A stretch of 46,710 nt of DNA from Phycisphaerae bacterium. Lineage in GTDB: Bacteria; Planctomycetota; Phycisphaerae; UBA1845. Positions 8,582-45,895 of the stretch are shown in pieces. Both the position numbers and the translations under genes were made by a program. The notes below the pieces were generated by a model. It saw nothing but the letters and a program-made list of their open reading frames with translations, did not search any database and was not told the DNA's origin. The stretch's first letter is position 1. The number at the start of each line of letters is the position of its first letter. The stretch is taken from NCBI GenBank assembly GCA_023133475.1, contig JAGLWJ010000275.1:1-46710 (forward strand), given 5' to 3'.

Positions 8582-10547
8582 GCGACGCCCCCTTCTCGGG
8601 TGTGAGACCGTTCTTCTTCATCCAAGCAATCGCCTTGCGCCACCGTTCCTCGGCGATCTTCTGCTTAGATGGGTGCCAGTGGTGAAGCACCTGCTCCACG
8701 ATTTGGTCGTCCGTCACGTCGTTGCAGTTGTCCAGCAGATCCTCCCACGCAGCATAGAGCGTGGCAACGATCTCACATTGGTCTGTCTTGGCAGTGCGAA
8801 AGATGTCGATGATCTCATCAAACCGCGACGCCACGTTGCCAAAATAGCGGTCGAAGTATCCACTATGTCCACCTGCCTTGGCGAGCGGGACATAGCGGTA
8901 GCCCTTGTCACCCTTCCGGGCCTCATACCACTGCTGCTTTTTTAGCTGGCTGTCAATGGACCGGAGGGCGCGGTTGTCGTAGGGGCCGGCGGCCTGACGA
9001 TGGTACGTTGACCCGGTGTCCACACTACACCGCTTCTCGCACAGGAAGATCAGCTTCTCGAACTTCACGTGGCCGAAGGTCGGTTCCTTGTGGAGCCGTT
9101 GTACGATCTCGGCCGCGAATACCGATCGACGGAAGTGGACATTGGCGGTGCGTCTGGGCTTAACCGGCATAGTGGCCGCAGGGGTCACAGCAGTCTGGCG
9201 GATGTCCAGCTTGCCCGTCACCACATCGCTAATCAGGCGTGTGCGATACTCGCGGATCAGGTCGATCTCACGTTGTGCCTTCTGCTGAGCATTGCGAAAT
9301 ACATTAACTTGACCATCTAACCAATCAAGGATTCTGTCTTGCTCATCGAGCGGAGGTATGCCGAGTGAGTTCGAGAAGTAGGCTCGCTCGTCAAGATTCT
9401 GGATTCCTGTAGTCTGCTTGATCGACGGAACGTTACGTCTAGTCGCTTGTAGAAAGGCGAGAACGAACAGCAGAAACCGAGAACGAACGACGGTACTATC
9501 CGGTCGAAGGCGGGAGATGAAATTGGAGGTGATGGCCGGTTGCGCAAGATCAAAGGCAACCACACGTCCAACAGGTTCAGCATCACCGCCGCCAGATTTC
9601 TCCATCACGATGTCACCGGGGCGCAACATCCTTGATTCGCGTGCCCTCGCTGGAATCGCCCTGAGCGTCAGTTTGGCCGATGAAATCCCCAGATTCACCA
9701 TATCGAAATCTGCAACACGGACACAGATAACATGATCGCTCCGGTTATCATCGGTCGGATCGTCACCCCATAAGCCTGCTGTCACGCTTTCCAAGCAGGA
9801 TCGAATACGGCGAACCTCCCAGTGCTCGGGGATGTCGCCGAGCCAGTCGATGCCGGAGGGTTTGAGGGGGACATTGGGGTCGAGGCCGCGGGTCACGGCC
9901 CGGTTGATGATGGCCTGCTTCTGCTCGTTCAACACCACGATCAGCCGTCGCCGATTGCGGATGAAGTGGCGCACGGCAATGGCGTTGGCATCGAGGAAGT
10001 CAGCGATGGCTTTCTGTTCGTCAGGGGGCGGGAGGAATATCGTGAACTGGCCGAGCGTCGTTCGGTTTGTGGAGGCGAGATTCGTGGTTTTCTTCGCGGT
10101 GCGCAGGAAATACGTTCGGCCGTGATTGCTTTCCATCATCAGCGACAGGAAGCGCGATGAGAGCCGGTCCGGCGCAGGCCGAACCGCGAAGATGTGATTC
10201 TGGTGGAGGCAGCCGTCAATCTCACCGTGCCAGATTGCCCCTCGTCCAAGCTTGTCTATGTCGCCGCCTTCCGTGACGACAACGTCGCCGTGCCGCAACT
10301 CGCACGCGCGGGCTTCCGATAACGGGACTGCAACACGCTTGATGTGCTTCAGGCTCAGATAGCCGTTCTGCACATTCGCCACGCGGAGGTATGGGCGTTC
10401 TACAAGGGGAACCTGATCGTACTTCTTGCCGAGTGTCACACCCGTTTGAATGCGCGTCACTCGCTTGAGCTTCGTCTCGTGCCAGTGCGCCGGCACCTTG
10501 CCCAGCCACGGCAAGCCGGAATCGCGATAGTCCGGGTACGCCCTCAT
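8568..10547 (-). CDS. hsdS: Type I specificity subunit (HsdS) with an extra C-terminal domain
   Basis: A 659-residue protein. Residues 1-450 form the usual two target-recognition half-repeats: each opens with an SGxxWLGxxPxHW element (10-23 and 231-243), and each ends in a PPxDEQ element and a helical spacer (about 173-230 and 398-450). These would recognise a bipartite DNA site and dock HsdM. Residues about 470-655 are extra. They contain FGHVKFEKLIFL and AAGPYDN and resemble the extension known from some long HsdS proteins, perhaps distantly Panacea/DUF4065-like. The start overlaps the rhuM stop as ATGA. The role of the extension is unknown to me. Confidence 0.9.
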   Translation of the reverse strand: MRAYPDYRDSGLPWLGKVPAHWHETKLKRVTRIQTGVTLGKKYDQVPLVERPYLRVANVQNGYLSLKHIKRVAVPLSEARACELRHGDVVVTEGGDIDKLGRGAIWHGEIDGCLHQNHIFAVRPAPDRLSSRFLSLMMESNHGRTYFLRTAKKTTNLASTNRTTLGQFTIFLPPPDEQKAIADFLDANAIAVRHFIRNRRRLIVVLNEQKQAIINRAVTRGLDPNVPLKPSGIDWLGDIPEHWEVRRIRSCLESVTAGLWGDDPTDDNRSDHVICVRVADFDMVNLGISSAKLTLRAIPARARESRMLRPGDIVMEKSGGGDAEPVGRVVAFDLAQPAITSNFISRLRPDSTVVRSRFLLFVLAFLQATRRNVPSIKQTTGIQNLDERAYFSNSLGIPPLDEQDRILDWLDGQVNVFRNAQQKAQREIDLIREYRTRLISDVVTGKLDIRQTAVTPAATMPVKPRRTANVHFRRSVFAAEIVQRLHKEPTFGHVKFEKLIFLCEKRCSVDTGSTYHRQAAGPYDNRALRSIDSQLKKQQWYEARKGDKGYRYVPLAKAGGHSGYFDRYFGNVASRFDEIIDIFRTAKTDQCEIVATLYAAWEDLLDNCNDVTDDQIVEQVLHHWHPSKQKIAEERWRKAIAWMKKNGLTPEKGASHAHN

Positions 10548-11650
10548 GCCCGCTTCCCCTGGCGTTTCTTCCGCTTCGACCGCGGTTTCGGCGGTGCTTT
10601 CGACTTGGGCTTCGATTTCATCTTCTTCGGCGGCGGCAGGCTCTCCAGCCGTTTCGCTTCCTGCTCAAATTCGTCATCGGCGGCGCTGGCTTCTTCCGCC
10701 AGGCGCTGCTCGTTGAACCGCGCGTACTGCTCCAGCGCCTTACGCTTCGCGCCCTCCATCGAGACGTGCCCGGCATGCGCAAGGACGGCCCGGTCGTTGA
10801 ACTTCAGGAAACCGTCCAGCTTGTCCCGCCAGTCGCGCATGTAGAGCGGCTGGCGGCGCTCGGCCTGCTCTTCTGCGTAGTCGAGGTACATCGTGACCGT
10901 CCGGTTCAATTGCCGTAGCTCGTCCTCGTTAAGGTAGTTCTTGGCAACCGTCACGTCCGCCGTGCGCACCTTCGCGCCCTTCCAGGTCGTCAGCCCCATA
11001 TTCGGTTTGGATGCGCCGGCGCGCAGCGCGATCAACTCGGCGGTGGTGTGCCCGGTGATCGCCCAGTGCAGCTTATTCTGTACAATCTGGAAGAACTCCT
11101 GTGTTTGGGGCGCCTTCGGGTCGTAGTCGATCGCCAGGGCGTAGATGTCGCGGATTTTCTGGTAGAAGCGCTTCTCGGAAGCGCGAATGTCGCGGATGCG
11201 CTCGAGGAGTTCATCGAAGTAGTCGGCCCCGAGCGACCGGCCCTCCTTGAGCCGCTGGTCGTCGAGCGCGAAACCCTTCACGAGATACCCGTGCAGCGTC
11301 TGGGTGGCCCAGCGCCGAAACTGTGTGCCGCGGTGCGAGCGGACGCGGTAGCCGACGGCTAGGATCATCTCGAGGTTGTAGTGCGTGACGCGGTAGTTCT
11401 TTCCATCAGCGGCAGTTGTTAAGTATTCCTTAACAACTGCCGCTGATTCTAACTCGCCTTCTTGAAAGATGTTACGAACATGCATGCTGATGTTCGGGAC
11501 GGACGTCTGGAACAGTTCTGCCAGCAGCGCTTGGCTGAGCCAGACCGTCTGCCCGTCCAGCCGAACATCGATCCGCGTGCGGCCATCTTCAGATTGGTAG
11601 ACGATGATGTTTGAGCCGCTGGGTGACGGGAGGTTTGGCGAACCGTTCAT
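10544..11650 (-). CDS. rhuM: RhuM-family protein inside the restriction-modification operon
   Basis: A 368-residue protein of the RhuM ('virulence protein RhuM') family, often found between hsd genes. The N-terminal half carries the family features: the VWLSQALLAELF helix-turn-helix-like stretch (about 34-45), HVRNIFQEGEL, and GYRVRSHRGTQFRRWAT near 120. The C-terminal tail (about 335-368) is very Lys/Arg/Pro-rich and may bind nucleic acid. Its biochemical role is not established. Its position between hsdM and hsdS, with 4-base ATGA overlaps on both sides, implies co-regulation and matched dosage with the restriction complex. Confidence 0.88.
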   Translation of the reverse strand: MNGSPNLPSPSGSNIIVYQSEDGRTRIDVRLDGQTVWLSQALLAELFQTSVPNISMHVRNIFQEGELESAAVVKEYLTTAADGKNYRVTHYNLEMILAVGYRVRSHRGTQFRRWATQTLHGYLVKGFALDDQRLKEGRSLGADYFDELLERIRDIRASEKRFYQKIRDIYALAIDYDPKAPQTQEFFQIVQNKLHWAITGHTTAELIALRAGASKPNMGLTTWKGAKVRTADVTVAKNYLNEDELRQLNRTVTMYLDYAEEQAERRQPLYMRDWRDKLDGFLKFNDRAVLAHAGHVSMEGAKRKALEQYARFNEQRLAEEASAADDEFEQEAKRLESLPPPKKMKSKPKSKAPPKPRSKRKKRQGKRA

Positions 11651-20574: not shown

Positions 20575-21807
20575 TTACGGACCGTCAAAGTCCATCTGAA
20601 AAACTGCAAAGTCAGCCAAATCACTGTCACCGTCCACGTCGAGGTCAGCGCAGGCGCATGGATCGCCCACCGGATTCTCCGGCCCCTCGAAACAGGCAAC
20701 GAAGGTACTTAGGTCAGTAAGGTCCACGTAGCCATTGGCATCGCAATCGCTGCAGGAAACCGCCCACAACCTCCACGTATCGTCGAATTGGTCCTCGCCA
20801 TTGCTTCCACCGTAGAGAGTACCCGCGTTCAAGAGGTTGTGTGACACGAGCCGGGCTCCTGCCAGTGCAGGCAACGGGTCGCCCAGTGGCTGCAACTGTG
20901 ACCACTGCATACCGTCCCACATCCATGTGTCGTTAAAGTACGTAGCATCTGGCCAGCCGTATACTCCACCCACTAGAAGCGTGCCGCCGAAGTCGGTGGA
21001 GTAGGCCATCGTCATATGGCGGCGTTCTGAGGGACCAGCCACGGTTCGCTCCAGCCATTGTGTACCATCCCATTCCCAGGTATCGCCTAAGTTTTCGAAT
21101 CCCTGCCCAAACTCTCCACCGTATCCTCCGAACAGAACAGCGACTTGTCGTGTGTCATCAAACGCCATCCCGTGTGAGCGCCGGGCGCATGGTCCTTCAA
21201 CAACCCGCTGTTGCCAACTGGTGCCGTCCCATACCCAGGTGTCGTTGTAGAGCCATTCTTCTTCTCCGGATCCTCCGGTGTCCCATATGCCTCCGAATAG
21301 TACGCACTCCTGTCGGATGCCGTCGTAGACCATGCGCGCGCTCCAGCGATCCGTCGGCCCTGAAGTCGCAACTTGGGCCCAGGCGGTGCCATCCCACTCC
21401 CATGTATCCCCAAGTGCAGCGTCATTGTTGTCGTGCCCACCATGCAGGACGACGACGCCCCGTACTGCATCGAAGGCCGCCGCGCTATCCTGTCGCGCAG
21501 TGGGGCCTGTTGTAGCTCTGAGTGTCCACGTTGAGCCATCGTATTCCCACGTGTCACCCACCTTCTGTCCACTCGATGCCTCTACCCCGCCAAACAAAAC
21601 GACCACGTCACGAGTGCCATCATACGCGAGAATCATGTTGCTGCGAGGTGACGGACCAACCGTTGAAACGTCCAGCCAGCCTGGACAGGTGCCAGAGCCA
21701 TCTGCCCGAACATCTGTGGGGAGCGAGCTGAAGACCGTCAAACCTGCGACCACGAACGCGGCTGAGGGAATCATGAAAACGGTTCGGCTGCCTGCTGGGT
21801 TGGTCAT
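20575..21807 (-). CDS. Secreted kelch-repeat protein with dockerin-like C-terminus
   Basis: A 410-residue exported protein. An N-terminal signal sequence (about 1-35, hydrophobic core FMIPSAAFVVAGLTVF) is followed by about six kelch-like repeats over roughly 50-350, each with a VLFGG-type strand and a DTWEWDG or DTWVWDG turn, predicting a beta-propeller. Residues about 351-410 carry two Asp/Asn-rich loops (DCDANGYVDLTDL and DLDVDGDSDLADF) like dockerin type I or EF-hand calcium loops, a tail frequent in planctomycete secreted proteins. It lies between two direct repeats. Its presence inside a mobile element is unexplained; it may be passenger cargo. Confidence 0.8.
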   Translation of the reverse strand: MTNPAGSRTVFMIPSAAFVVAGLTVFSSLPTDVRADGSGTCPGWLDVSTVGPSPRSNMILAYDGTRDVVVLFGGVEASSGQKVGDTWEYDGSTWTLRATTGPTARQDSAAAFDAVRGVVVLHGGHDNNDAALGDTWEWDGTAWAQVATSGPTDRWSARMVYDGIRQECVLFGGIWDTGGSGEEEWLYNDTWVWDGTSWQQRVVEGPCARRSHGMAFDDTRQVAVLFGGYGGEFGQGFENLGDTWEWDGTQWLERTVAGPSERRHMTMAYSTDFGGTLLVGGVYGWPDATYFNDTWMWDGMQWSQLQPLGDPLPALAGARLVSHNLLNAGTLYGGSNGEDQFDDTWRLWAVSCSDCDANGYVDLTDLSTFVACFEGPENPVGDPCACADLDVDGDSDLADFAVFQMDFDGP

Positions 21808-33634: not shown

Positions 33635-36600
33635 ATGACTCGATGGAGGAAGATGAAACGCCATACCAGCGACTTGGCAGATAGCGGACGCAAGGCGGCC
33701 CGTTCAGAAACAGACGGGCGAGATGCGGGCTCCCAATTGCTCTTCGATTTCGGTGCGCTTTCCGCACCGTCCCCAGTTGTGATCCCGTCAGGGCGTGAGT
33801 GTCCGGAATGGCAATTCGCGCTTCGATTCGCAGCCATCATGGAAGCAGAGCCAGCCTGCACCTTTGACAACGCGGAGGTGTCGAGCCTGGCCCGCGAGAT
33901 ATTCGGAATGTCTGCCGGACACGCACGCGATGCGTACGACGCGGCTGAAGCCGGATTCAACATCTACATGGAGCGTGTCGGGCTGGACCTGAGCGATCCG
34001 CACGCCGCGATTGAGTGGCTCGTCGCCCAGCAGGCGCGATTGCCGCGGCAAACACGTCGCGATGAGGTTCAAGTTGAGTTCCAGCAATTCAGCACGCCGC
34101 CGGCCCAGGCGCTCGTGCTCGTGAAGGCGGCGGCACTTCGACCCGGAATGAAGGTGCTCGAACCCAGCGCGGGCACGGGCAACATCGCGGCCTTGGCACG
34201 ACTGGCCGGCGCTGAGGTCGACACGAACGAGATCGATGAGCGTCGGGTGAGCCTACTGTCGCTTCAGGGATTCGAGCCGACGGCGTTTGACGCCGAACGT
34301 CTCGACAATCTTCTTCCGGCGGACAAGCTCTACGACGCCATCGTAATGAACCCGCCGTTCTCGGCGACCGGTGGACGCGTGCGGGGACATCGCACGGCGT
34401 TCGGGGCGCGGCACGTCGAGCAAGCGCTGCTACGCCTCAAGCCCGGTGGACGCTTGGTGGCCATCGTGGGTCGCGGGATGGCGTTGGAGCGGCCAACGTT
34501 TCGCAAATGGTGGGCCGAAATCGAGCAGCGCCACAACGTTCGGGCGAACCTGGGCATCGACGGCTCCGCGTACGCCAGATTCGGCACGACGTTCGACAAC
34601 CAGATCATCGTGATTGACCGAGACGGCTCGACCGCGAACGAGTCGGACATCATCAGGGGAAGCGGGCTGTCACTTTACGACGCATACGAGTTGATCAAGA
34701 ATCTTGGACAGGAGGACGTATATGGGCGAATTCGCAGACATGATGAAGCAGCGGGCGGTGGAGGTGCTCCGGCGAACGTACGGGCAGGAACCATCGACCG
34801 GAACGGACCCGGTGGTCGAGTTGATGGGACTGCTACTGGAGGACGGGGCAGGGGGCGTTCGGCGGCTGCCGCAGATACCGCTGACGACGGAGCAGTGGAT
34901 CCTCTGGCACCAGCTCGTGATGGAGCGGCCGGAGGAGCTTGTCCGAATGTTGACGCAAGTGCTCGAACGCGAGCGGATGGAGCTTCCGCAGGAAGCCGAA
35001 GCGATGCGGGTGTGGGCAGCTCAGCTTCTGCTGAGCACGCTGGACGAAATGGGGATGGCATAGGCCAACTCGAAACTGCCGTCCCGCTGCCGGCGCTACG
35101 CATCGAGGACGGCACCGTCTTCGCCGCCTACCGTGTACAGAAGGCGATCGTCCGGGGGTCAGAGCCCCATCCGGCCAACGTGGTCGAGTCCACGGCCATG
35201 GCGTCCGTCGAGCCGCCGGACGTTACCTATCGACACCACCTACCCGCCGAAGTGATCGCCGAAGGCCGCATCTCAGATCTCCAACTTGAAGACGTGATCT
35301 ACTCCGGACAGGCGACCAGCGTGCCGCTGCCCGACGGCTCGCTCAAGGGGCACTGGAATGGCGACGGCACGGGAATTGGGAAGGGAAGGGAGGTCTACGC
35401 ATTCATCTACAACGAACTTCAGCAGGGCCGGCGCAAGCACGTGCATGTTTCGGCATCGCACCAACTGCGGGCCGATGCCGAACGCGATCGTGACGCCGTT
35501 GGGATTCCGCTTCCGATCGTGCACCAAGCCAAGTTCAAGCCAGGCGAAGCGATTCCCGCCGAGGCGGGCGTGCTGTTCACAACTTACACGATGCTCAGTA
35601 CGGATTTCGGAGGTGAGCGCCAGCGATTCAAGCAGTTGACCGACTGGCTCGGAGCCGATTTCGAGGGCGTGATCGCATTCGACGAGGCGCACCTGATGAA
35701 GAACGCGGCCGCCACGCCGCACGGCGGCAAGGCCACGGTGGACCACGGCACTCTGCGCGGGAACATGGGCATCACGTTGCAACGCCTCTTCCCGCAGGCT
35801 CGGGTCCGCTACTTCAGCGCGACCGGCGCCACGGAAGCCCGCCACATGGCCCCCTACGAACGGTTGGGGCTCTGGGGTGTCGGGGCTCCGTTCGCCGACT
35901 TCCCGGCCTTCCTGGTGGCGATGGAGCGTGGGGGCGTCGCGGCGATGGAGATGCTCTGCCGCGACCTCAAAAGTGTCGGGACGTATCTCTCTCGCACGAT
36001 CAGCTATGGTCCCACGCGCCGCGAGGATGGGAGTGTCGTGCCCGAGAGCGCGGTCGAGTACGAACCGCTTCTGCACAATCTGACGGTGGATGAACAGCGA
36101 CAGTATGACCAGATCGCCGACCTGTGGTCGGAACTTCTGACAGCGTTCGAGTCGGCTGAACAGAACGCCGGCCAGGGACGAAACTCTCACCGATACGCCC
36201 AGTTCTACTCGGCCCAGCAGCGTTTCTTCTTGCAGTTGATGATGGCCTACACGCTACCCGACGTGATCCCGGCCATCGAGATGGACCTCCAGCAGGGACG
36301 CTCCGTGATCCTGAGTCTCTTCAACACGGGAGAAGCACAGGCGGATCGCAAGGTGCGTGACGCCCGCGCCCAAGGCATCGAGCTATCCGAACTGGACGCA
36401 ACCCCGCGCGAAATGATCGTACAGCTCATCGAAAAGCAGTTTCCCATTTTCCAGTACCGCGAAGAAACGGACCCCGTGACCGGCAACGTAATCAGCGTGC
36501 GCGTCGAGGACGCGGCGGGGAACCCGGAGATCAACCGCGAGAACCAGCGGCAGCAGGAGAGGTTGCTCGACAAGGTCGCCGACCTGGACTTTCCGCAGAA

Positions 36601-38227
36601 CTCGATGGATGCTCTGATTACGCATTTCGGCGTCGGCAACGTGGCCGAGATCAGTGGCCGCACGCACCGGTTCGAGAATGGCAAGTACGTACGGCGCAAG
36701 ATTCGTGGCGTGTCGCGGCGGCAACTCAACGAGTACGAGACGCGGCTGTTTCAGCGGGGCAGAAGGCGTCTCGCCATCATCTCCGGCGCGGGCTCAACCG
36801 GCATCAGCGTTCATGCCGACGTGGACGCGAAGAACCAGCAGCGCCGCGCTTTCTACGCGTTCCAGCTCTCATGGTCGGCTGACCAACAGATGCAGGCCTT
36901 TGGCCGTGTGCATCGGTCGAATCAGACTTCAGCGCCGGTCATTCGTTTGGTATTGCTCGACCTGGCCGGTCAGAAGCGGCTCGTGAATGCCGTCTCCAAG
37001 CGACTCGCCGCACTGGGCGCGCTGACCAAGGGCGAACGACATTCGCTTTCGAGCGAACTCTTCAGGCCGGAGGACGTAACCGACCCATTCGGCAAGGCTG
37101 CGCTGGCCCGGCTGTACCGGCAGATCGAATCCGGCCGGCACGCGGATGCAGGGTTTGGCCTGCGCGACCTGGATCGAATGGGCGTGCTGAACAAGGAGAA
37201 GACTGCGGTCCGGGACAGCTACGCGAGCAACGTCGAGCAGTTTCTCAACCGCATCATGGTGTTGCACGTCGAGAAGCAGAACCGCATCTTCGACCTTTTC
37301 TACGAGCGTTACCAGGAGGCGGTGGAGGCGGCCAAGCGACAGGGGGCTTTCGACTTCGGAATGGAGGAGATTCGCGCCCGCAACCTGCGGAGAACCGCCG
37401 AGGCGGAAACGCTGTTCGTGGACCCGGCATCCGGCGCCCGCACGATGTTGCATGAACTGGAAGGCGAGGTCGATGTCGTTCGACACACCTTCGCTACGGC
37501 GGCGAGCACGGGCGATGAGGGCTTCCATCGCAACAAGCGCAGCCGGCGAGTATACGCCGTATCGAAACACTGGGACGCCTATCGGTCCGAGGTGTTCCTC
37601 ACGGCGGTCAAAGGCCCGCGACGAGCATTGGAACATCGTGAATTGGAGGACAAGTACGAACGAGTGGAGCAGGCGGAAGCTCGTGAGTGGTGGGAGGCGG
37701 AGTACGCGAACACACCGGCGACCGAGCCGCGTCGGTTCTACATCCTCAGCGGCGCGATATTCCCCATCTACGACAAGGTCATGGGCTCGTCGGGCATTCA
37801 GACCGTCAAGATCGCGCGGGCCATCCTCGCCGATGGCCAAGCCCTGGTCGGTCTCAACCTGAGCGCATCCGACGTACCGAACGTCAAGCAGCGGCTCGGC
37901 ATCGGCACACCGCTGGGCGAAGCCTCGCCGACGGAGATCGTCGGCCTGCTGATCGGCGGCGCCGTAATCGAGTTGGACAACGGCTGGCAGCTCACTTCGG
38001 CCCGCATCGCGGGCGACGAGGTGGTAGAGTTGGTACTCAACGGGGTCCCTGGTAATCGTGAAGAACTGCGACGCTATGGCTTGTCGGAAGAGATCATCTA
38101 CTACAAACGGCGCTGGTTCGTCCTGTTGGATGAAGCGGCGACCACCTTGCCGAACCTTCTTGCGCAGCGGAAACCGATCAGGGATTTGACGGCCGCGGAT
38201 ACACCGATCCTGGTCGAACAGAATTGA
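33635..38227 (+). CDS. DarB-like methyltransferase-helicase fusion
   Basis: A 1530-residue frame. The N-terminal part is a methyltransferase with EPSAGTGN at 176-183 and NPPF at 239-242. The C-terminal part is a strawberry-notch-type SF2 helicase with GDGTGIGKGR at 576-585, DEAH at 683-686 and QAFGRVHR near 1088-1095. Large methyltransferase-helicase proteins of this kind include phage P1 DarB, which protects incoming DNA from type I restriction. Its place in the probable leading region fits that role (inference). Residues 363-476 are Gly/Ala/Arg-rich and coincide with another gene in a different frame. The start is unsure: ATG 33635 lacks a Shine-Dalgarno, and ATG 33653 has GGAGG very close. 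Confidence 0.85.
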   Translation: MTRWRKMKRHTSDLADSGRKAARSETDGRDAGSQLLFDFGALSAPSPVVIPSGRECPEWQFALRFAAIMEAEPACTFDNAEVSSLAREIFGMSAGHARDAYDAAEAGFNIYMERVGLDLSDPHAAIEWLVAQQARLPRQTRRDEVQVEFQQFSTPPAQALVLVKAAALRPGMKVLEPSAGTGNIAALARLAGAEVDTNEIDERRVSLLSLQGFEPTAFDAERLDNLLPADKLYDAIVMNPPFSATGGRVRGHRTAFGARHVEQALLRLKPGGRLVAIVGRGMALERPTFRKWWAEIEQRHNVRANLGIDGSAYARFGTTFDNQIIVIDRDGSTANESDIIRGSGLSLYDAYELIKNLGQEDVYGRIRRHDEAAGGGGAPANVRAGTIDRNGPGGRVDGTATGGRGRGRSAAAADTADDGAVDPLAPARDGAAGGACPNVDASARTRADGASAGSRSDAGVGSSASAEHAGRNGDGIGQLETAVPLPALRIEDGTVFAAYRVQKAIVRGSEPHPANVVESTAMASVEPPDVTYRHHLPAEVIAEGRISDLQLEDVIYSGQATSVPLPDGSLKGHWNGDGTGIGKGREVYAFIYNELQQGRRKHVHVSASHQLRADAERDRDAVGIPLPIVHQAKFKPGEAIPAEAGVLFTTYTMLSTDFGGERQRFKQLTDWLGADFEGVIAFDEAHLMKNAAATPHGGKATVDHGTLRGNMGITLQRLFPQARVRYFSATGATEARHMAPYERLGLWGVGAPFADFPAFLVAMERGGVAAMEMLCRDLKSVGTYLSRTISYGPTRREDGSVVPESAVEYEPLLHNLTVDEQRQYDQIADLWSELLTAFESAEQNAGQGRNSHRYAQFYSAQQRFFLQLMMAYTLPDVIPAIEMDLQQGRSVILSLFNTGEAQADRKVRDARAQGIELSELDATPREMIVQLIEKQFPIFQYREETDPVTGNVISVRVEDAAGNPEINRENQRQQERLLDKVADLDFPQNSMDALITHFGVGNVAEISGRTHRFENGKYVRRKIRGVSRRQLNEYETRLFQRGRRRLAIISGAGSTGISVHADVDAKNQQRRAFYAFQLSWSADQQMQAFGRVHRSNQTSAPVIRLVLLDLAGQKRLVNAVSKRLAALGALTKGERHSLSSELFRPEDVTDPFGKAALARLYRQIESGRHADAGFGLRDLDRMGVLNKEKTAVRDSYASNVEQFLNRIMVLHVEKQNRIFDLFYERYQEAVEAAKRQGAFDFGMEEIRARNLRRTAEAETLFVDPASGARTMLHELEGEVDVVRHTFATAASTGDEGFHRNKRSRRVYAVSKHWDAYRSEVFLTAVKGPRRALEHRELEDKYERVEQAEAREWWEAEYANTPATEPRRFYILSGAIFPIYDKVMGSSGIQTVKIARAILADGQALVGLNLSASDVPNVKQRLGIGTPLGEASPTEIVGLLIGGAVIELDNGWQLTSARIAGDEVVELVLNGVPGNREELRRYGLSEEIIYYKRRWFVLLDEAATTLPNLLAQRKPIRDLTAADTPILVEQN
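34722..35063 (+). CDS. 113-residue gene nested in another frame of the DarB-like gene
   Basis: ATG at 34722 is preceded by AGGAGG six bases upstream, an ideal ribosome-binding site, and the frame ends at TAG 35061-35063. Codon use is typical of the window, with mostly G or C at third positions. The host gene's frame here instead gives a low-complexity linker. The product is helical and soluble (QRAVEVLRRTYG, TEQWILWHQLVM, MRVWAAQLLLSTLDEM) with no recognised domain. It fills exactly the junction between the methyltransferase and helicase domains. It is probably a true overlapping gene; function unknown. Confidence 0.65.
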   Translation: MGEFADMMKQRAVEVLRRTYGQEPSTGTDPVVELMGLLLEDGAGGVRRLPQIPLTTEQWILWHQLVMERPEELVRMLTQVLERERMELPQEAEAMRVWAAQLLLSTLDEMGMA

Positions 38228-38911: not shown

Positions 38912-39211
38912 CTAGGTGGGAATGCGTACAAATGCGGCGGACCACTCATCTGTCGGCTGAGCGAGATCGCGGGAATTCGGTGAGTATCCCTGCCGCCGGA
39001 CCGTCGTCGACTTGCTGCCCGTGACCAAGACACGTGTCACGCCGCGGTCAGCTTCGCAGAGCAGGTCAATAGTGCGTAGCCTGCCGTACCGAGGATCGCA
39101 CCTTGCACCGCCCACTTGCTCCGCGATAATGGCACGTACGGGCTGAGCGGGGCGCCGCCGGTAAGTGCCCCCGGCCACAACCTGTACGGGAGTGCTGGCG
39201 AATGTCCTCAT
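38912..39211 (-). CDS. Possible 99-residue gene divergent from the phosphoesterase cluster
   Basis: A leftward frame that starts at ATG 39209-39211 and overlaps the start of the rightward phosphoesterase gene by 10 bases. Third codon positions are mostly G/C, and the product (QVVAGGTYRRRPAQPVRAII near 9-28, RTIDLLCEADRGVTRVLVTG further on) could be a small beta-rich domain. No clear Shine-Dalgarno and no recognised family. It could equally be a chance frame. Confidence 0.28.
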   Translation of the reverse strand: MRTFASTPVQVVAGGTYRRRPAQPVRAIIAEQVGGARCDPRYGRLRTIDLLCEADRGVTRVLVTGSKSTTVRRQGYSPNSRDLAQPTDEWSAAFVRIPT

Positions 39212-41190
39212 CGAGCCGCTCGTTCACCTGGCTTCATCTGTCCGACCTTCACTTGGCCGATAATGACTACGACCAAGACATCGTCACTCGAGCACTGCTC
39301 CGGGATCTCCCGGCCTTGTTGGCCCGTGACAATCTGCGACCTGACTGCGTGTTCTTCACAGGCGACATAACCAGGCACGGAAGTGACACTGAATTCGCAA
39401 AGGCCGCTAAGTTTTTCAAAGCTCTCAAGAACTGTGTGCATCCCACACTAAACTCCGCAGGTCTGCTGGTCGTACCCGGCAATCACGACGTGCACTGGCC
39501 ATTAGTTAGCATTACCGCCAACACCGTGGATATCTCGGCCTTTCACACTGAGGGCGCAATTCATGACGTCTTCCATCAACCTGAACGCACTGTCTATCTT
39601 CAGGGTCTGCAGAACTACTTCGCATTCAGCAGGCAGAATATCGTCAAGGGCAGTATGGCGACGATGGATCAGCTCGATAGCTGGTTCTGGAGTCGCCTTT
39701 TGCGTTCGTCGGCTGGCCTTCGCATCGGCCTGATCGGCCTAACAACGTCCTGGCGATGTTGTGAGGCACTGCGCGGCAGCGAACCTGGACATCTCCTTCT
39801 CGGCGTCTTTGGCTTGCGGCAGACACTGGAGTCCTGGAAGGCGCTTGCCCCTGACAAGCAGCCAGACCTCATCATCGTCCTTGGACACCATCCCGTTTCC
39901 TGGCTTAGCGAGGTAGAGCAAAGTCCCACTTCGAATCTGATTTCCAAAAACGTCGACATATTTCTCCGGGGGCATGAACACCGGGCGCAGTGTACATATC
40001 AGCAGTCGATTGCCGGTGCCCATCTTGAATATGCGGCAGGCGCCATATTCACGGACGAGGACAGTGTACGGCGCACTGGCCTACGTTTTGCCGCGGGCGT
40101 TGTCCGGCCGGACGAGAGTGCCGGCACCATTTACTCTTACAAGTACAAGGAAGAGGGAGGTAATGAAAAGTGGCTTCCTGACCATGAGTTTGCCGAATCC
40201 TCCACTCACACTTATCCGTTTTCGATTAGACCGGACACAAACCGGTCGGACTGCGTTGCCACTTCGCATCGCCCGGTTGGAGTAAACGATGACAATGCAC
40301 GACCCCGATACCGCCTGCGCGCCGTCACGGCCGTCGGCTTGCTCTGTGCGCTTGCCATCGCAACTGCTCTCATCATCGTTTTTGCTCAAGGACAAGACAG
40401 GATATCCATCGCGCTCACCGATACCCCACGACACCTTGGAGACAACGTATTCGCCTCGATTGGCGTCATGGAACCATCGCCGGTGCGGGCACCGTCGGGT
40501 GACGAACACAATGGGCTGATTTGGCTCGACAAGGGGCTGGGGGAGATCACACTCACATCATTACCGACCCTGGTCATACCATTCATACGCGAGTTGCAGG
40601 CATTATATTCACAGTATGACCTCAGCACCTACCAACATGTGCGTCTTGTGCAGACATCGGATCTGGCGGCCATGCCACCGAAGAAGCGTGGTCCACCGTA
40701 TGCTGAACCCTTCGGCGCAAGTTGGCTAGTATGGGATACGGGCGCGGGCAATTTCCACTTACAGCGTGCTGCCGTAGCGTTGTGCCACGTATGGGACATG
40801 AAGTCTGAATTGGAAGCGCGCAACATTCAATATGACACGGTCGAATTGGTCGATGCCAACTTGGTGATCCGCATCAGTCACGGCGGACACCCACAGGGGG
40901 ACGGCGGGAGCATCTTGCTTCGACTGAATGATGCCACGCATGACATTGCTGAACTGCTAGTCCACGAAACGGGACAGCATCCGGAGGTACTGAAAATCAG
41001 TGTTAAGAACGACCTGAATATGACGGGAGATTCGTTCAATGTGCTAGGACTAGCTACAACGCCGATACAGGAGAGGACGCCCATTCCGTGGGAGCCCTCC
41101 GGCAGGTCGTCACCTGGTCCCGCACATTTTCGTGATATTACCGTCTACTCAGTTGCTCTTCAGTTATCACTTAAGCATGAAAAGCGGTAG
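39202..41190 (+). CDS. Membrane-anchored calcineurin-like phosphoesterase
   Basis: A 662-residue protein. Residues 8-300 form a metallophosphoesterase with the full metal set: D15-L-H17, GD at 54-55, GNHD at 93-96, GHH at 228-230 and GHEH at 257-260. A hydrophobic helix follows at about 374-396. The remaining 266 residues (397-662), of unknown fold, would lie on the other side of the membrane. Such enzymes cleave phosphodiesters, including cyclic nucleotides and nucleic-acid ends; the substrate here is not known. It is the first gene of a rightward three-gene cluster. GC is visibly lower than in the defence and transfer modules, suggesting separate origin. Confidence 0.8.
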   Translation: MSSSSRSFTWLHLSDLHLADNDYDQDIVTRALLRDLPALLARDNLRPDCVFFTGDITRHGSDTEFAKAAKFFKALKNCVHPTLNSAGLLVVPGNHDVHWPLVSITANTVDISAFHTEGAIHDVFHQPERTVYLQGLQNYFAFSRQNIVKGSMATMDQLDSWFWSRLLRSSAGLRIGLIGLTTSWRCCEALRGSEPGHLLLGVFGLRQTLESWKALAPDKQPDLIIVLGHHPVSWLSEVEQSPTSNLISKNVDIFLRGHEHRAQCTYQQSIAGAHLEYAAGAIFTDEDSVRRTGLRFAAGVVRPDESAGTIYSYKYKEEGGNEKWLPDHEFAESSTHTYPFSIRPDTNRSDCVATSHRPVGVNDDNARPRYRLRAVTAVGLLCALAIATALIIVFAQGQDRISIALTDTPRHLGDNVFASIGVMEPSPVRAPSGDEHNGLIWLDKGLGEITLTSLPTLVIPFIRELQALYSQYDLSTYQHVRLVQTSDLAAMPPKKRGPPYAEPFGASWLVWDTGAGNFHLQRAAVALCHVWDMKSELEARNIQYDTVELVDANLVIRISHGGHPQGDGGSILLRLNDATHDIAELLVHETGQHPEVLKISVKNDLNMTGDSFNVLGLATTPIQERTPIPWEPSGRSSPGPAHFRDITVYSVALQLSLKHEKR

Positions 41191-41295
41191 GTGAGCGCGA
41201 GCCTGCTCATGGATAACCGCCGGCTCGCCTAGAAACGTCACCCGCGCTATGGTTTACACACGAACTGCCGTGCGTGTGGCGAATGAGGAGAAGCG

Positions 41296-44200
41296 ATGCG
41301 ACAGCGCTTATGGAACGAGCTGAGAGCCGCTCGGTACGAGGAGGCCGTAGCAGAGTTGACTGCGCTCCACGAGTCGGGGGAGGACTTCGACGCCCATCTT
41401 GTTCTCGCAGCAGTTAGGCTGCAGCATGAGGCGGCTCAGCCAATCCCAGACACTTGGGCCAGCGAGTGGCAAGCGAACGGTCTGACAGAACTTGTTACGA
41501 TTGCAGCGCACCTGTTCAAGGGTCAATGGCGGAGTGCTGTCGATGAGTACCAGAAGCGCAAGGATGCCTTTCGACAAACCAAAGACGACGGCGGATCAGC
41601 CGCGCTTGCAGCGTGGTGTGCGACCCGAGCCGCCTTGGAACTCGGGGACAGCACACTAGCCGCTGGCATTGCGTCTGAGGCACTTGACTGCGGTTATCGC
41701 AGTCCTGTTCTCTTGGTGGAGGCGCTGCGCGTTCAGTTGGAACATGCCTTTCTTCCCTGCCCAGATACACTTGTTGTCGACTTGAGCCTCTGGGTTGATG
41801 ATGGTCACACGTCGTTCATGTCTCCCGCCTGGGCGGCTATTGCCGAGGGCCTGTCAGCATGGCTCAATCATCGTGATGGTGCGAGCACACAGGTTCAACA
41901 GTATTTGAACAAGGCGGGCACAGATCTCCAGCCATATCCATTCGATCTGGCTGAGCTTCTTCCCTTTTTTGAACGGATTCAACACCCTGTGGCCCAGGCA
42001 TATGCTGCGTCCATCTTACCGCGGTCGCGCGGTAGTTATTACACGTGCCGTTATGTGTTTCATGGCGACCCAGCATTCTCTGAGGCCAACGGCCTTCTTG
42101 ACCAACTGCTGAGTGACAACCCATCTTCTCCGGGCTTGCATTTGTGCAAGGCGCAATTGGCCCTAAAACACAAGCAGTACAGCCAGGCCCTCGCGTCAGC
42201 TCTGTCTGTTCGAGAGATTGACGCGACCAACATAAAGGCGGTGCGCATAGCCTTTCAGGGGGCCACGCGTTCCGGCAACCTGCCACAGGCGATTGAGCTC
42301 GCAAAAGACCTCGTGCTGCTTTCGAGCGACCACGCAGCGGCCTACGAGTTTGCATATAGGGAATTTACCGCAATCGGGCGCCAAGAGGATATTGTTTCGA
42401 TCGCCGAGTTCTGGTGCGGACAAGAGTGGGACACAAAGGAGAATGCGCGGCTCCCTTTAGATGTGTCCGCCGTTAAGCAGTTTCATCAGAGAGGGCGACA
42501 TGACGCACTCGTTGAGTTGCTGAACCGGCGAGCTGAACAGCTCGGTGAGGAGCAGCTGGCGTCCTTGCTCGCACGCGAAGAGGTCCGGAATGTTCTTGCG
42601 GAGCTAGGCACGCTGCAGGGTTTGAACGTGGCTGCACGCTTCGCGTGCGCCAGAGCAAGCGAGAGCATAAAGGACATTGAGGCCGCGTCGGAGACTCTGG
42701 CGGCAATGGCGCTTGATGAGACCATCTCTGCTGAAGAGAGAACGGGAGCGAAGTGGCGGAACAAAATAGTCCAGGCGCACGCTTCCTTGCTTAGAAACAT
42801 GGACGATGCAGAGTGTCTTCGAGACTTCTTGGGCGTCTGTGCACAGGCCGACGCCGCGTTGGCCATTCCGGCCGTCCGAGCGCTGCTCGATCGCCTTGGA
42901 CAGGAGGGGCGCCTGCTGGACGCCAGGGGAGTCATAGAGACACTTGTGTCCAAGGCCGACTCTGAGACAATCCTCACATTCTGTGCGGAATGGCTTGACA
43001 CCAAACTGCATGATGCCGCGGCGGGTCTTGAGTGTCTAAGGCCCCACCTGGATGCCATAAGTGAGTCCACAACGTGGCGGTGTCGGTGCCGTCTACTGAG
43101 CAAGTGTGGGGACTCGGAGGCGTGGATAGCCGCGGCGAGTGAAGGGCAGGGGCGGTTTCCTGACACAAAAGCCCTGTTCGTAATAGAAGAGGGCTTAGCA
43201 AAGGCAGCCATCGAGCCAGCCACGGCTATAGATCTGCTGCACAGTGGACTTCTCTCGGAGCCTACCGATAACCGAGGCTTGAACGGGTTTCTCCCACTTG
43301 CGAAGCGATTTGACAGGCACCATGAGGCAATTGAGGTGTTGCAGAAAACAATTGCCAAGGTACCGACATCAACCGGCTGCCGCGCTTGGTTGGCAGCGCT
43401 GCTCGATGCGTCAGGCAGTGATGAGCGCGCGCTTCTTGAGCACTTGTATTATCTGGTTCATCGCGACACCGGGTATGGCAAGAAGGAGCGAGACACCAGT
43501 CGCAAGCACATGCCGCGCGTTCGTGAGCGACTTCTAACGGCTCGGCAAGCGGAAGATGAGTATCTAGACAGTTTCGCGAAGGCGCACCGGCAGCGGGTGT
43601 CTGCGGCCATTCGATCGGTACCGCTCCTTGCGGACAACGTCGTAGCCGCAGTGTTTGCCCAACTCGAGACGGACGATAGCGCAGATAACAACAGTGAAGA
43701 GCAGTCCAAGGAAGACACGCATACTGCAACTCAGTTAGGCCTTATATTGGTGGTAGATAGCCACCATCTTGCAAAACCCGAACAAACGCGCTTGGCCAGC
43801 GTGGCCACGGAGGCACTAACAGTTCGGGGATATTCCGAACTCGTTAGGATTCACGCGAGCGCCGAAATATGGCACGAACTGCGACGATCCACGCGCGGCC
43901 TGCTGGAAGGCATACTGGCGGGAGTGCCTGCTCTTGACAGCTCTTTTCTCGAGTGCCTTCGCGCAGTGGATTCACATCGTGAGATGGTCCTCGAGAAATT
44001 CAAGGAGTACGTGGCGTGCTACGTCGTCGCTGGTTCTTTTGTGCGCGGCACTGCCCGACCGTCGTCCGACATGGACGTGTGGATTGTAATCAACGACACG
44101 GATGTCAAGCGCATGAGCCGACAGGACTTGTTCAAGAAGATTAAGACAATTGTTGACGAGCAGGCTGTGGAGGCGAGACAGCGTTGGGCCAGCAATCGGC

Positions 44201-44988
44201 AGATACATGTGCAGACATACCTGTTATCTGACTTCTGGGATAAATTGCGTGAATCGTCACCCATTCTGACGTCCTTTTTGCGCGACGGCGTGCCATTGTA
44301 CGATAATGGCTTTTTCAATACGTGGACCGTTCTGCTAGACGAGGGGAAGCTGCAGGCCACGAGGGAAGCTTTAGATAGACAAATAAGGACACTGCGCGAC
44401 GTACGAGAGCGTGGCCGCAAGGCGATTAACGACGTTTTGGGAGGGCTCGTGAATACAATCAAGCGCACGGCCATTGGACCGCTGGAAGTCGTTCTCGAAG
44501 CAATGGGTCTTCCGACGGGTGACTACCGTCAAGTTGTTGAGATAACAAAGCGAGAGCTCGTCGCTGAGCGGGAGCTGTTTAGCCCTGATGACTTGGTAAT
44601 CGCCGAGCAAGCCGTAGACATGTGCAAGGCATACGAAGCCGGGAGATTACCCGATGCCGAGAAGGTGTGTGCCTTATTTAGACAAACAGAGGAACTTTCG
44701 GACAAGTGTCAACGCGTGTATCAGAAGGTTCTTTTCGAAAGGGACCTAGATCTTGTTCGGTCATGGGCCGAGCGCATTCGGCAGAGCGTCCAGGGCGAGG
44801 ACGCTGTCTCTGAGCATGGTGTTCCACCGGATGAGAGCACGATGCTCAAAAGATTCGTGGAGAGGGTTGACGATGTAGTAGCACACGTGGACGACCCATT
44901 GTCGCCGCTGCGCACGGCGATTCTGGCGGCAGAAGTTGCTAGCATCAAACGATGGGAATGGTTGTTAGAAGAAAGGGCGGCCAGGTGA
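41296..44988 (+). CDS. Large helical-repeat protein with polymerase-beta-type nucleotidyltransferase domain
   Basis: A 1230-residue protein. Residues 1 to about 800 are built of alpha-helical, TPR-like repeats (for example LHLCKAQLALKHKQYSQALA). Around 890-1010 is a nucleotidyltransferase domain with G913-S914, R917-G918 and the paired aspartates D925 and D927 in SSDMDVW. The expected third carboxylate strand reads QIHVQTYLL with no obvious acidic residue, so activity is uncertain. A helical C-terminal region of about 200 residues follows. The start has GAGGAG 5-6 bases before the ATG. The repeats could sense a ligand or partner and the transferase could modify a target or make a signal; both are inference. 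Confidence 0.72.
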   Translation: MRQRLWNELRAARYEEAVAELTALHESGEDFDAHLVLAAVRLQHEAAQPIPDTWASEWQANGLTELVTIAAHLFKGQWRSAVDEYQKRKDAFRQTKDDGGSAALAAWCATRAALELGDSTLAAGIASEALDCGYRSPVLLVEALRVQLEHAFLPCPDTLVVDLSLWVDDGHTSFMSPAWAAIAEGLSAWLNHRDGASTQVQQYLNKAGTDLQPYPFDLAELLPFFERIQHPVAQAYAASILPRSRGSYYTCRYVFHGDPAFSEANGLLDQLLSDNPSSPGLHLCKAQLALKHKQYSQALASALSVREIDATNIKAVRIAFQGATRSGNLPQAIELAKDLVLLSSDHAAAYEFAYREFTAIGRQEDIVSIAEFWCGQEWDTKENARLPLDVSAVKQFHQRGRHDALVELLNRRAEQLGEEQLASLLAREEVRNVLAELGTLQGLNVAARFACARASESIKDIEAASETLAAMALDETISAEERTGAKWRNKIVQAHASLLRNMDDAECLRDFLGVCAQADAALAIPAVRALLDRLGQEGRLLDARGVIETLVSKADSETILTFCAEWLDTKLHDAAAGLECLRPHLDAISESTTWRCRCRLLSKCGDSEAWIAAASEGQGRFPDTKALFVIEEGLAKAAIEPATAIDLLHSGLLSEPTDNRGLNGFLPLAKRFDRHHEAIEVLQKTIAKVPTSTGCRAWLAALLDASGSDERALLEHLYYLVHRDTGYGKKERDTSRKHMPRVRERLLTARQAEDEYLDSFAKAHRQRVSAAIRSVPLLADNVVAAVFAQLETDDSADNNSEEQSKEDTHTATQLGLILVVDSHHLAKPEQTRLASVATEALTVRGYSELVRIHASAEIWHELRRSTRGLLEGILAGVPALDSSFLECLRAVDSHREMVLEKFKEYVACYVVAGSFVRGTARPSSDMDVWIVINDTDVKRMSRQDLFKKIKTIVDEQAVEARQRWASNRQIHVQTYLLSDFWDKLRESSPILTSFLRDGVPLYDNGFFNTWTVLLDEGKLQATREALDRQIRTLRDVRERGRKAINDVLGGLVNTIKRTAIGPLEVVLEAMGLPTGDYRQVVEITKRELVAERELFSPDDLVIAEQAVDMCKAYEAGRLPDAEKVCALFRQTEELSDKCQRVYQKVLFERDLDLVRSWAERIRQSVQGEDAVSEHGVPPDESTMLKRFVERVDDVVAHVDDPLSPLRTAILAAEVASIKRWEWLLEERAAR

Positions 44989-45037
44989 CAAGAACGAGCA
45001 GGGGTCTGAAAGAGGTGGTGAGGTGGAGAGCTGAGAG

Positions 45038-45895
45038 ATGCTGAGATTACTCGTCGTTGGTGATCTTCACGCCAATTTGTCTGCAATCCAGCAGATTGTC
45101 CGCGCGGCTGCAACAGCTCCGTCAGACATGACGCCTGACGCGGTAATCCTCACTGGTGATTTTGCAGCGCATGACGCGCGCCTGCCAGCCGCTGTGGCAA
45201 GCCGGATTCAACGTGGTGTTGTTCGTGCAACAGAATCGCTCTGGTGTGGGCTGCAGGTGCCTATACTATGTGTTCCGGGGAACCATGACAGACCGGACTT
45301 GTGGGGTGTGGGCGGATGCTTGCAGAGCATCGACACGCTTGGAGGCAGGCAGCCGGCAATGGTAAAAGGATACCGAGTTATTGGGGTGGGTGGGAGTTGG
45401 CGATTCGGAGGTTTGCCGTACGAATGGGAAGACTCCGAAGGTTTTGAGAAAGCGCTGGAGGATAGGTGGCCGGCCTCGGATGACGTCCCGGAAGTGTTGC
45501 TTTTCCATGCACCGCCGGCAGAGGCAGGTGTAGATAGGGTGGTGTCCGGTGAGTGCGTCGGGAGCAGGGCGTTACGAAACATCGCGCTTCGAAGAAGGCC
45601 AAGGTTGGTTATATGTGGCCACATACACGAGGGAATTGGCCCTGGCGTTCTCGGTGGCGAGATTCCAGTGTTTAATGCGGGGCTAGCAGGTGTGCCTCTC
45701 ATTCCGCCGTTTATGTTGCGCCAGAGGAACACTGAGAAGCCTCGACGGTTGCGCGTTCCCGGGTCGTTCTTCAGCATGCATATGATTGAGGAAAGCGAGT
45801 CGCAGTACGACGTGGTGGCCATGTGTAATCTCGGCAGAGGATGGATTCGACAACACCTCGTGTTCGAATCGAGGCGTGGATGGCGAGTCGAATAA
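45038..45895 (+). CDS. Small cytoplasmic metallophosphoesterase
   Basis: A 285-residue calcineurin-like phosphoesterase with complete metal motifs: D9-L-H11, GD at 40-41, GNHD at 81-84, H157 in FHAPP and GHIH at 194-197. It has no signal peptide or membrane helix. It starts 49 bases after the nucleotidyltransferase gene, with GGAG upstream. It is only weakly like the first phosphoesterase of the cluster, so the two may act on different substrates or on different sides of the membrane. It could be the off-switch for a product of the middle gene (inference). Confidence 0.8.
   Translation: MLRLLVVGDLHANLSAIQQIVRAAATAPSDMTPDAVILTGDFAAHDARLPAAVASRIQRGVVRATESLWCGLQVPILCVPGNHDRPDLWGVGGCLQSIDTLGGRQPAMVKGYRVIGVGGSWRFGGLPYEWEDSEGFEKALEDRWPASDDVPEVLLFHAPPAEAGVDRVVSGECVGSRALRNIALRRRPRLVICGHIHEGIGPGVLGGEIPVFNAGLAGVPLIPPFMLRQRNTEKPRRLRVPGSFFSMHMIEESESQYDVVAMCNLGRGWIRQHLVFESRRGWRVE

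Follow-up and report, generated by a model that had tools for sequence, protein, structure and literature searches.

Gene layout and genomic setting

The window, meaning the whole stretch of DNA analysed here, is 46,710 nucleotides of a contig from a Phycisphaerae bacterium (JAGLWJ010000275.1). At its lower-GC end lies a cluster of three genes, P0001, P0002 and P0003, all on the plus strand (Table 1). P0001 and P0002 are separated by 105 nt and P0002 and P0003 by 49 nt, and no promoter-like or terminator-like sites were found in these two gaps. The GC content is 54-58% in the region of the trio versus 57-65% (mostly 59-65%) in the remaining window. A sequence-only reading of this DNA had described a three-gene cluster in a single direction and in lower-GC DNA, and both observations were reproduced.

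The contig encodes a tyrosine integrase, a TrwC/MOBF relaxase and a T4CP, which places the cluster in a conjugative mobile-element setting. The mobile element was thus recognised correctly in the earlier reading, but its position "beside defence genes" was loosely put. Hachiman HamAB and a type I restriction-modification (R-M) system occupy 1.2-13.7 kb of the window, about 25 kb from the trio, with the conjugation genes between. The ends of the contig do not overlap with each other.

Some other genes of the window are worth recording. A RhuM-family gene (10544-11650, 5e-116) lies between the specificity and methylase genes of the type I R-M system, and a Kelch-repeat protein is encoded at 20575-21807, close to the conjugation genes. 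Directly upstream of the trio and on the same strand, a gene at 33635-38227 encodes a protein of 1530 aa, part of which is methyltransferase-like and which also has a helicase pair of the strawberry-notch type (AAA_34 and Helicase_C_4). No convincing gene was recognised in the roughly 970 bases that follow it.

Table 1. Genes and predicted domains of the three-gene cluster (window positions; residue numbers refer to the encoded protein)
Feature	Position	Strand	Basis
P0001, 662 aa, DS-8-like metallophosphoesterase with one TM helix and a C-terminal part	39202..41190	+	Pfam, profile matches, AF2, Foldseek
MPP catalytic domain of P0001, about residues 8-340	39223..40221	+	alignment of 19 sequences
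Predicted TM helix of P0001, about residues 374-396	40321..40389	+	hydropathy, AF2 model
P0002, 1230 aa, DPANN-type MNT-HEPN module preceded by TPR-like repeats in one chain	41296..44988	+	
Helical, TPR-like repeats of P0002, about residues 1-759, which may sense or scaffold	41296..43572	+	TPR_19 6.4e-7
First, degenerate nucleotidyltransferase-fold copy, P0002 about residues 772-881	43609..43938	+	profile comparison, AF2
Nucleotidyltransferase domain, P0002 about residues 882-1022; GSX10DXD at 44032-44076	43939..44361	+	conservation, Foldseek
HEPN-like helical domain, P0002 about residues 1023-1166, without conserved RX4-6H	44362..44793	+	profile vs 2hsb, Foldseek
P0003, 285 aa, second metallophosphoesterase, Rv0805/MPPED2/PDC-S10-like	45038..45895	+	Pfam, PADLOC, phmmer, L064 relative

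P0001, a membrane-anchored DS-8-like metallophosphoesterase

P0001 is a calcineurin-like metallophosphoesterase (MPP) according to Pfam (Metallophos PF00149, 7e-14). Its best curated match is DS8_antiphage (NF053861, 1.5e-28), which covers the MPP domain only (residues 12-342); as a whole protein, P0001 scores 99.1 bits against a curated cut-off of 790. It also matches DS9_1 (DS-9A) at 8.5e-13, and PADLOC reports PDC-S60 (7.7e-27) together with a model named "Effector". The catalytic and metal residues are complete. D15, H17, D55, N94, H95 and H229 are invariant in an alignment of 19 sequences, and H258 and H260 are nearly so. The helix at about residues 374-396 has a hydropathy of 2.74 across 19 residues and corresponds to a helix at 367-396 in the AF2 model, whose MPP part is confident and whose C-terminal part is poor. 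Since an Arg-rich sequence precedes the TM helix, the sequence suggests a cytoplasmic location for the MPP domain and an outside one for the last 266 residues. No family or homologue of these 266 residues was found in Pfam or in the loci scanned. Thus, the description of a complete, membrane-anchored phosphoesterase with an unmatched tail of 266 residues was accurate. Pfam detected no NTPase domain, NACHT included, and P0001 has no recognised ligand-binding domain.

P0001-type MPPs in the other sampled genomes occur without a nucleotidyltransferase and are mostly multidomain proteins fused to NACHT or NB-ARC. I found an MPP with NACHT and FGE-sulfatase, an MPP within a GASH operon and, in genomes of the same order and by reading of the sequences, MPP-NACHT and an MPP protein with NB-ARC-like and TPR-like parts. 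From these fusions and the GASH operon, the MPP of P0001 is judged to be a module that serves as an effector in conflict systems. Calcineurin-like effector domains of STAND/TRADD-N conflict systems have also been listed by Kaur et al. (PMC8195603). In the sampled genomes, the MPP family of P0001 supplies the effector, at the N- or C-terminus, in NACHT-FGE, NB-ARC-TPR and GASH systems, whereas the present cluster has no STAND NTPase and carries its TPR and nucleotidyltransferase parts in a separate protein.

Among the closest described systems are DS-8 and DS-9, found with DefensePredictor (PMC13092281). In DS-8 the MPP is joined to NACHT, and defence is lost when the metallophosphatase is mutated; DS-9 is a similar MPP paired with a HAD phosphatase. 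The MPP of P0001 is homologous to theirs, has complete catalytic residues and gives SMPDL3-type fold matches. However, it has a TM helix and an unmatched tail where DS-8 has NACHT, and its neighbour is a TPR-nucleotidyltransferase instead of the HAD phosphatase of DS-9. Foldseek with the P0001 model returned Bacillus subtilis YydB as the top match (E 8.9e-21), along with SMPDL3B/SMPDL3A and Rv0805. The identity of P0001 to YydB (with YydD; PDB 9a6c) is 18%, and no YydD-like ATPase was identified among the neighbours examined.

P0002, TPR-like repeats fused to an MNT-HEPN module

In P0002, Pfam identifies TPR_19 (6.4e-7) and NTP_transf_2 (8.4e-7), and a GS-X10-DMD motif lies at residues 913-927. 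These agree with the earlier account of a 1230-residue helical-repeat protein with a GS...SSDMD nucleotidyltransferase motif. The AF2 model of the C-terminal module (mean pLDDT 80) consists of two alpha/beta units followed by long helices, and the strand-helix pattern of the degenerate copy is visible in it. Foldseek matches of the module include AAD(9), ANT4, GlnE, MNT and HEPN structures and, among the weaker ones, HalB. The whole-chain TM-scores are low, which is probably due to a differing domain arrangement. PADLOC assigns P0002 to PDC-S09.

Neither Pfam nor PADLOC matched a CD-NTase (cyclase) model to P0002, and CBASS was dropped for the cluster on this ground. A HEPN RNase was also dropped, because the RNase motif is not conserved: the HEPN-like region has conserved K1111/E1114 in place of RX4-6H, and A1115 stands where most relatives carry His. 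The third acidic position of the pol-beta fold is N, H, E or S in the module family, with an acid in 12 of 83 members. Since this residue is not conserved, the sequence indicates that the nucleotidyltransferase of P0002 could be altered or inactive.

With full-length P0002 as the query, no match was obtained in plasmids, phages or viral contigs, nor by single-sequence patterns in genome_contigs, and 392 genomes of the phylum gave local NTase or TPR matches only. No relative spanning the whole TPR-like part, about 760 residues long, came up in the databases searched.

The module family in DPANN archaea and rare bacteria

When P0002 was compared with 397 genomes of its class, two real relatives of the C-terminal part emerged, L064 (genome G722; 27% identity over P0002 residues 760-1031, 2e-34) and L065 (genome G690; 25% identity, 2e-22). 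Thus, the module is rare in this bacterial class (3/397 genomes, counting the window copy). The three bacterial copies were aligned (A2) and used to search genome_contigs, which yielded 161 confirmed relatives. The best 80 of the 161 are almost all from DPANN archaea, which are tiny symbionts, with E values of 1e-42 to 1e-57, and an independent tblastn search with the P0002 segment reached the DPANN loci at values down to 3e-57. P0002 matches the family profile (A4, 608 positions) at E 4.2e-139 over 442 of these positions, P0002 itself being in the profile. Neither A2 nor A4 found anything in viral contigs, and the L064 nucleotidyltransferase found nothing in plasmids.

Members of the family are about 600 aa long and comprise a degenerate nucleotidyltransferase copy, an intact GSX10DXD nucleotidyltransferase and HEPN-like helices. 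The G, the S and both Asp residues of GSX10DXD are invariant in all 83 members, and DTDVKRM, QxYxLTxFW and RDGVPLYDRG are further signatures. Profile comparison indicates that the two halves of the N-terminal region are copies of one another (P 2.3e-15). The family profile matches the HEPN structure 2hsb at 1.7e-4 and MNT proteins weakly; the DPANN relative L067 has a weak match to HEPN PF05168 (0.0074).

By its published description, this family is very probably cls.004259 / NEQ050, an MNT-HEPN fusion typically found in a house-keeping context in DPANN (Makarova et al. 2019, PMC6393860). There is no Nanoarchaeum equitans record among the best 80 of the 161 relatives. Many DPANN copies in these 80 loci lie near the ribosomal L35Ae and L10e genes, in line with that "house-keeping context". 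The P0002 module belongs to the same family by profile, has the same domain order, and shares GSX10DXD, DTDVKRM and RDGVPLYD. In contrast to the archaeal fusions, the window copy is bacterial, sits on a mobile element, carries about 760 TPR-like residues and lies beside an MPP gene; no MPP neighbours were found in the DPANN loci examined. The loci L066-L145 often carry another copy a little further downstream, separated by a few genes and on the opposite strand; 105 copies were counted in the 80 loci.

In the module tree, the three bacterial copies are on very long branches and no supported group holds them, so a single transfer looks the same as several. L081 (labelled Aminicenantes) and L121 (labelled Patescibacteria) have modules close to the DPANN copies. 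These labels may be binning errors, and the two loci were not counted as bacterial copies.

P0003 and its pairing with the module

P0003 is also an MPP (Metallophos 4.2e-19 in Pfam; PDC-S10 3.3e-11 in PADLOC) and matches MPPED2 (4.7e-6) and Rv0805 (4e-5). All eight metal and catalytic residues are present (D9, H11, D41, N82, H83, H157, H195 and H197), so the second phosphoesterase is complete, as had been claimed. In the tree, P0001 and P0003 fall in well-separated MPP subfamilies.

In the distant bacterium of L064, the module gene overlaps a P0003-like MPP gene just downstream in the same direction. The product of the latter is the closest P0003 relative found (32% identity, 80.6 bits). Is this adjacency due to chance? 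Of 110 genomes of the order, 16 have P0003-like MPPs (E <= 1e-6), and the module occurs in 3 of the 397 class genomes; chance adjacency is therefore unlikely. A rough estimate, which assumes some ten MPPs per 4,000-gene genome, puts the chance of a P0003-like MPP within two genes at about 1e-4 and that of any MPP at about 1e-2. From these sequence comparisons, the pair of the module and a P0003-like MPP looks real. Its common descent is likely, with the reservation that the MPP tree does not resolve P0003 and the L064 MPP as a clade apart from stand-alone MPPs.

The pair was seen in two genomes only, those of the window and L064. No MPP was seen beside the module in L065, but the contig ends just upstream of the module gene, so the missing MPP is weak evidence. 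No module relatives were found near the P0003-like MPPs of viral contigs and Roseobacter plasmids. The L064 pair opens a compact five-gene run in a single direction (L064:5563-10548, G722:C36); after the MPP come two proteins of 293 and 239 aa without a significant family match, and then a small membrane protein. By its appearance, this run is another version of the system, in which the accessory genes differ.

There is no counterpart of P0001 in the L064 stretch, and the trio was not found elsewhere in the genomes searched. The link of P0001 to the other two genes is seen in this window only. The domain reading of the sequence-only account agrees with Pfam and the motifs, but the trio as a conserved unit was not recovered. 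The co-occurrence survey that it called for gave a divided result: P0001-type MPPs and DPANN nucleotidyltransferases occur apart, and the module-MPP pair recurs once.

A candidate writer and eraser pair

What might these proteins do? The HepT/MntA system offers a precedent. MntA, a nucleotidyltransferase with GSX10DXD, adenylylates and silences HepT; the AMP was removed in vitro by snake venom phosphodiesterase, and the natural phosphodiesterase is unknown according to the authors (PMC7641770). P0002 has the same motif, and its combination of such a nucleotidyltransferase with a HEPN-like domain lacking RX4HXY may resemble Class II HEPN/MNT pairs (PF05168/PF01909, PMC7641770). It differs from Class I in the absence of this RNase/acceptor motif, and from HepT/MntA generally because both domains are in a single chain, the nucleotidyltransferase fold is duplicated, TPR-like repeats are present and a phosphoesterase gene lies beside it.

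I propose that P0002 and P0003 are a writer and eraser pair carried by a conjugative mobile element; for such a pair, a module gene next to that of an Rv0805-like phosphodiesterase would be expected. P0002 would be an MNT-HEPN-type adenylyltransferase gated by its TPR-like array, a natural place for sensing or docking, where a partner may be sensed or scaffolded. It would attach AMP or a short oligo-AMP to a target protein, in all likelihood a product of its own operon, and P0003, as an Rv0805/MPPED2-type phosphodiesterase, would take that group off. P0001 may be the output, a DS-8-type phosphodiesterase at the inner membrane with a cytoplasmic catalytic domain. I infer this direction of control and the membership of P0001; the anti-phage activity proven for some members of its MPP family makes P0001 a natural choice of output. 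Once released, it might act on nucleotides or nucleic acid, probably in anti-phage defence. Several observations speak for this scheme: the intact GSX10DXD, the HEPN profile match, the predicted-structure matches to MNT, HEPN, aminoglycoside adenylyltransferases, GlnE and HalB, the L064 adjacency of so rare a module, the DS-8 kinship of P0001 together with its NACHT, NB-ARC and GASH relatives, and the short gaps free of promoter-like or terminator-like sites. Against it are the restriction of the pair to two genomes, the MPP tree, the lack of an MPP beside the L065 and DPANN copies, the missing third acid, and the failure to find relatives for the trio, for the repeats of P0002 or for the P0001 tail. 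I put the whole model, with P0002 as writer, P0003 as eraser and P0001 as an associated membrane output, at a probability of about 0.35. The earlier suggestion that the nucleotidyltransferase acts and a phosphoesterase reverses its action gains support as far as P0002 and P0003 are concerned, from the module beside a P0003-like MPP in L064.

Other explanations should be weighed. The three genes may be unrelated cargo of separate origins on a mobile element, with a nucleotidyltransferase that is perhaps inactive and an L064 adjacency that is a coincidence. The failure to recover the trio elsewhere, the separate subfamilies of P0001 and P0003 and the non-conserved third acidic residue would all fit. 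The small gaps, the single direction and the recurrence of so rare a module directly beside a P0003-like MPP are harder to reconcile with it, and I regard it as rather doubtful. Alternatively, infection may cause P0002 to make a diffusible nucleotide that binds or activates P0001 at the membrane and that P0003 degrades, resetting the system. MPPs of these kinds do cleave nucleotides or cyclic nucleotides (the Rv0805 and SMPDL3 matches by phmmer and Foldseek), and HalB, a defence nucleotidyltransferase among the weaker fold matches of the module, was solved with an oligodeoxyadenylate. Such a second messenger is unlikely when the family and fold matches of P0002 are protein- or antibiotic-modifying MNT/ANT enzymes, no CD-NTase family of the CBASS cyclase type is seen by Pfam or PADLOC, and P0001 has no recognised domain to bind a ligand.

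A toxin-antidote arrangement would make P0001 the harmful protein, kept inactive by adenylylation by P0002 and freed by loss of P0002 or by the action of P0003. MntA does inactivate HepT through adenylylation, and the MPP family of P0001 is an effector in DS-8, DS-9 and STAND fusions. However, the putative toxin does not adjoin the module in L064, and no acceptor tyrosine can be named; this arrangement seems improbable. The writer and eraser scheme is thus kept here as the working model, tentatively. Its most specific form is a long shot: the P0003-like MPP would be a dedicated eraser of MNT-type protein adenylylation, and the trio a new kind of defence carried on a mobile element, with the DS-8-like phosphodiesterase at the membrane under the control of the eraser and of an archaeal-type adenylyltransferase gated by TPR.

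Implications

The sequence-only reading knew of no described system of this composition. The parts have become less unfamiliar, namely a DS-8-like MPP (PMC13092281) and a DPANN MNT-HEPN module (PMC6393860), but the combination was not matched. The parts belong to known families; their combination, the TPR-like fusion and the presence of an archaeal-type module on a bacterial mobile element were not found described in the literature searched.

The MNT-HEPN family is common in DPANN archaea, often among ribosomal genes. The bacterial copy, to which a possible sensor is fused and a phosphodiesterase genetically linked, offers a concrete handle on what such enzymes do. P0003 is a candidate for the kind of phosphodiesterase that would reverse HepT/MntA-type adenylylation, and with P0001 the DS-8 class of anti-phage metallophosphatases would gain a member anchored in the membrane.
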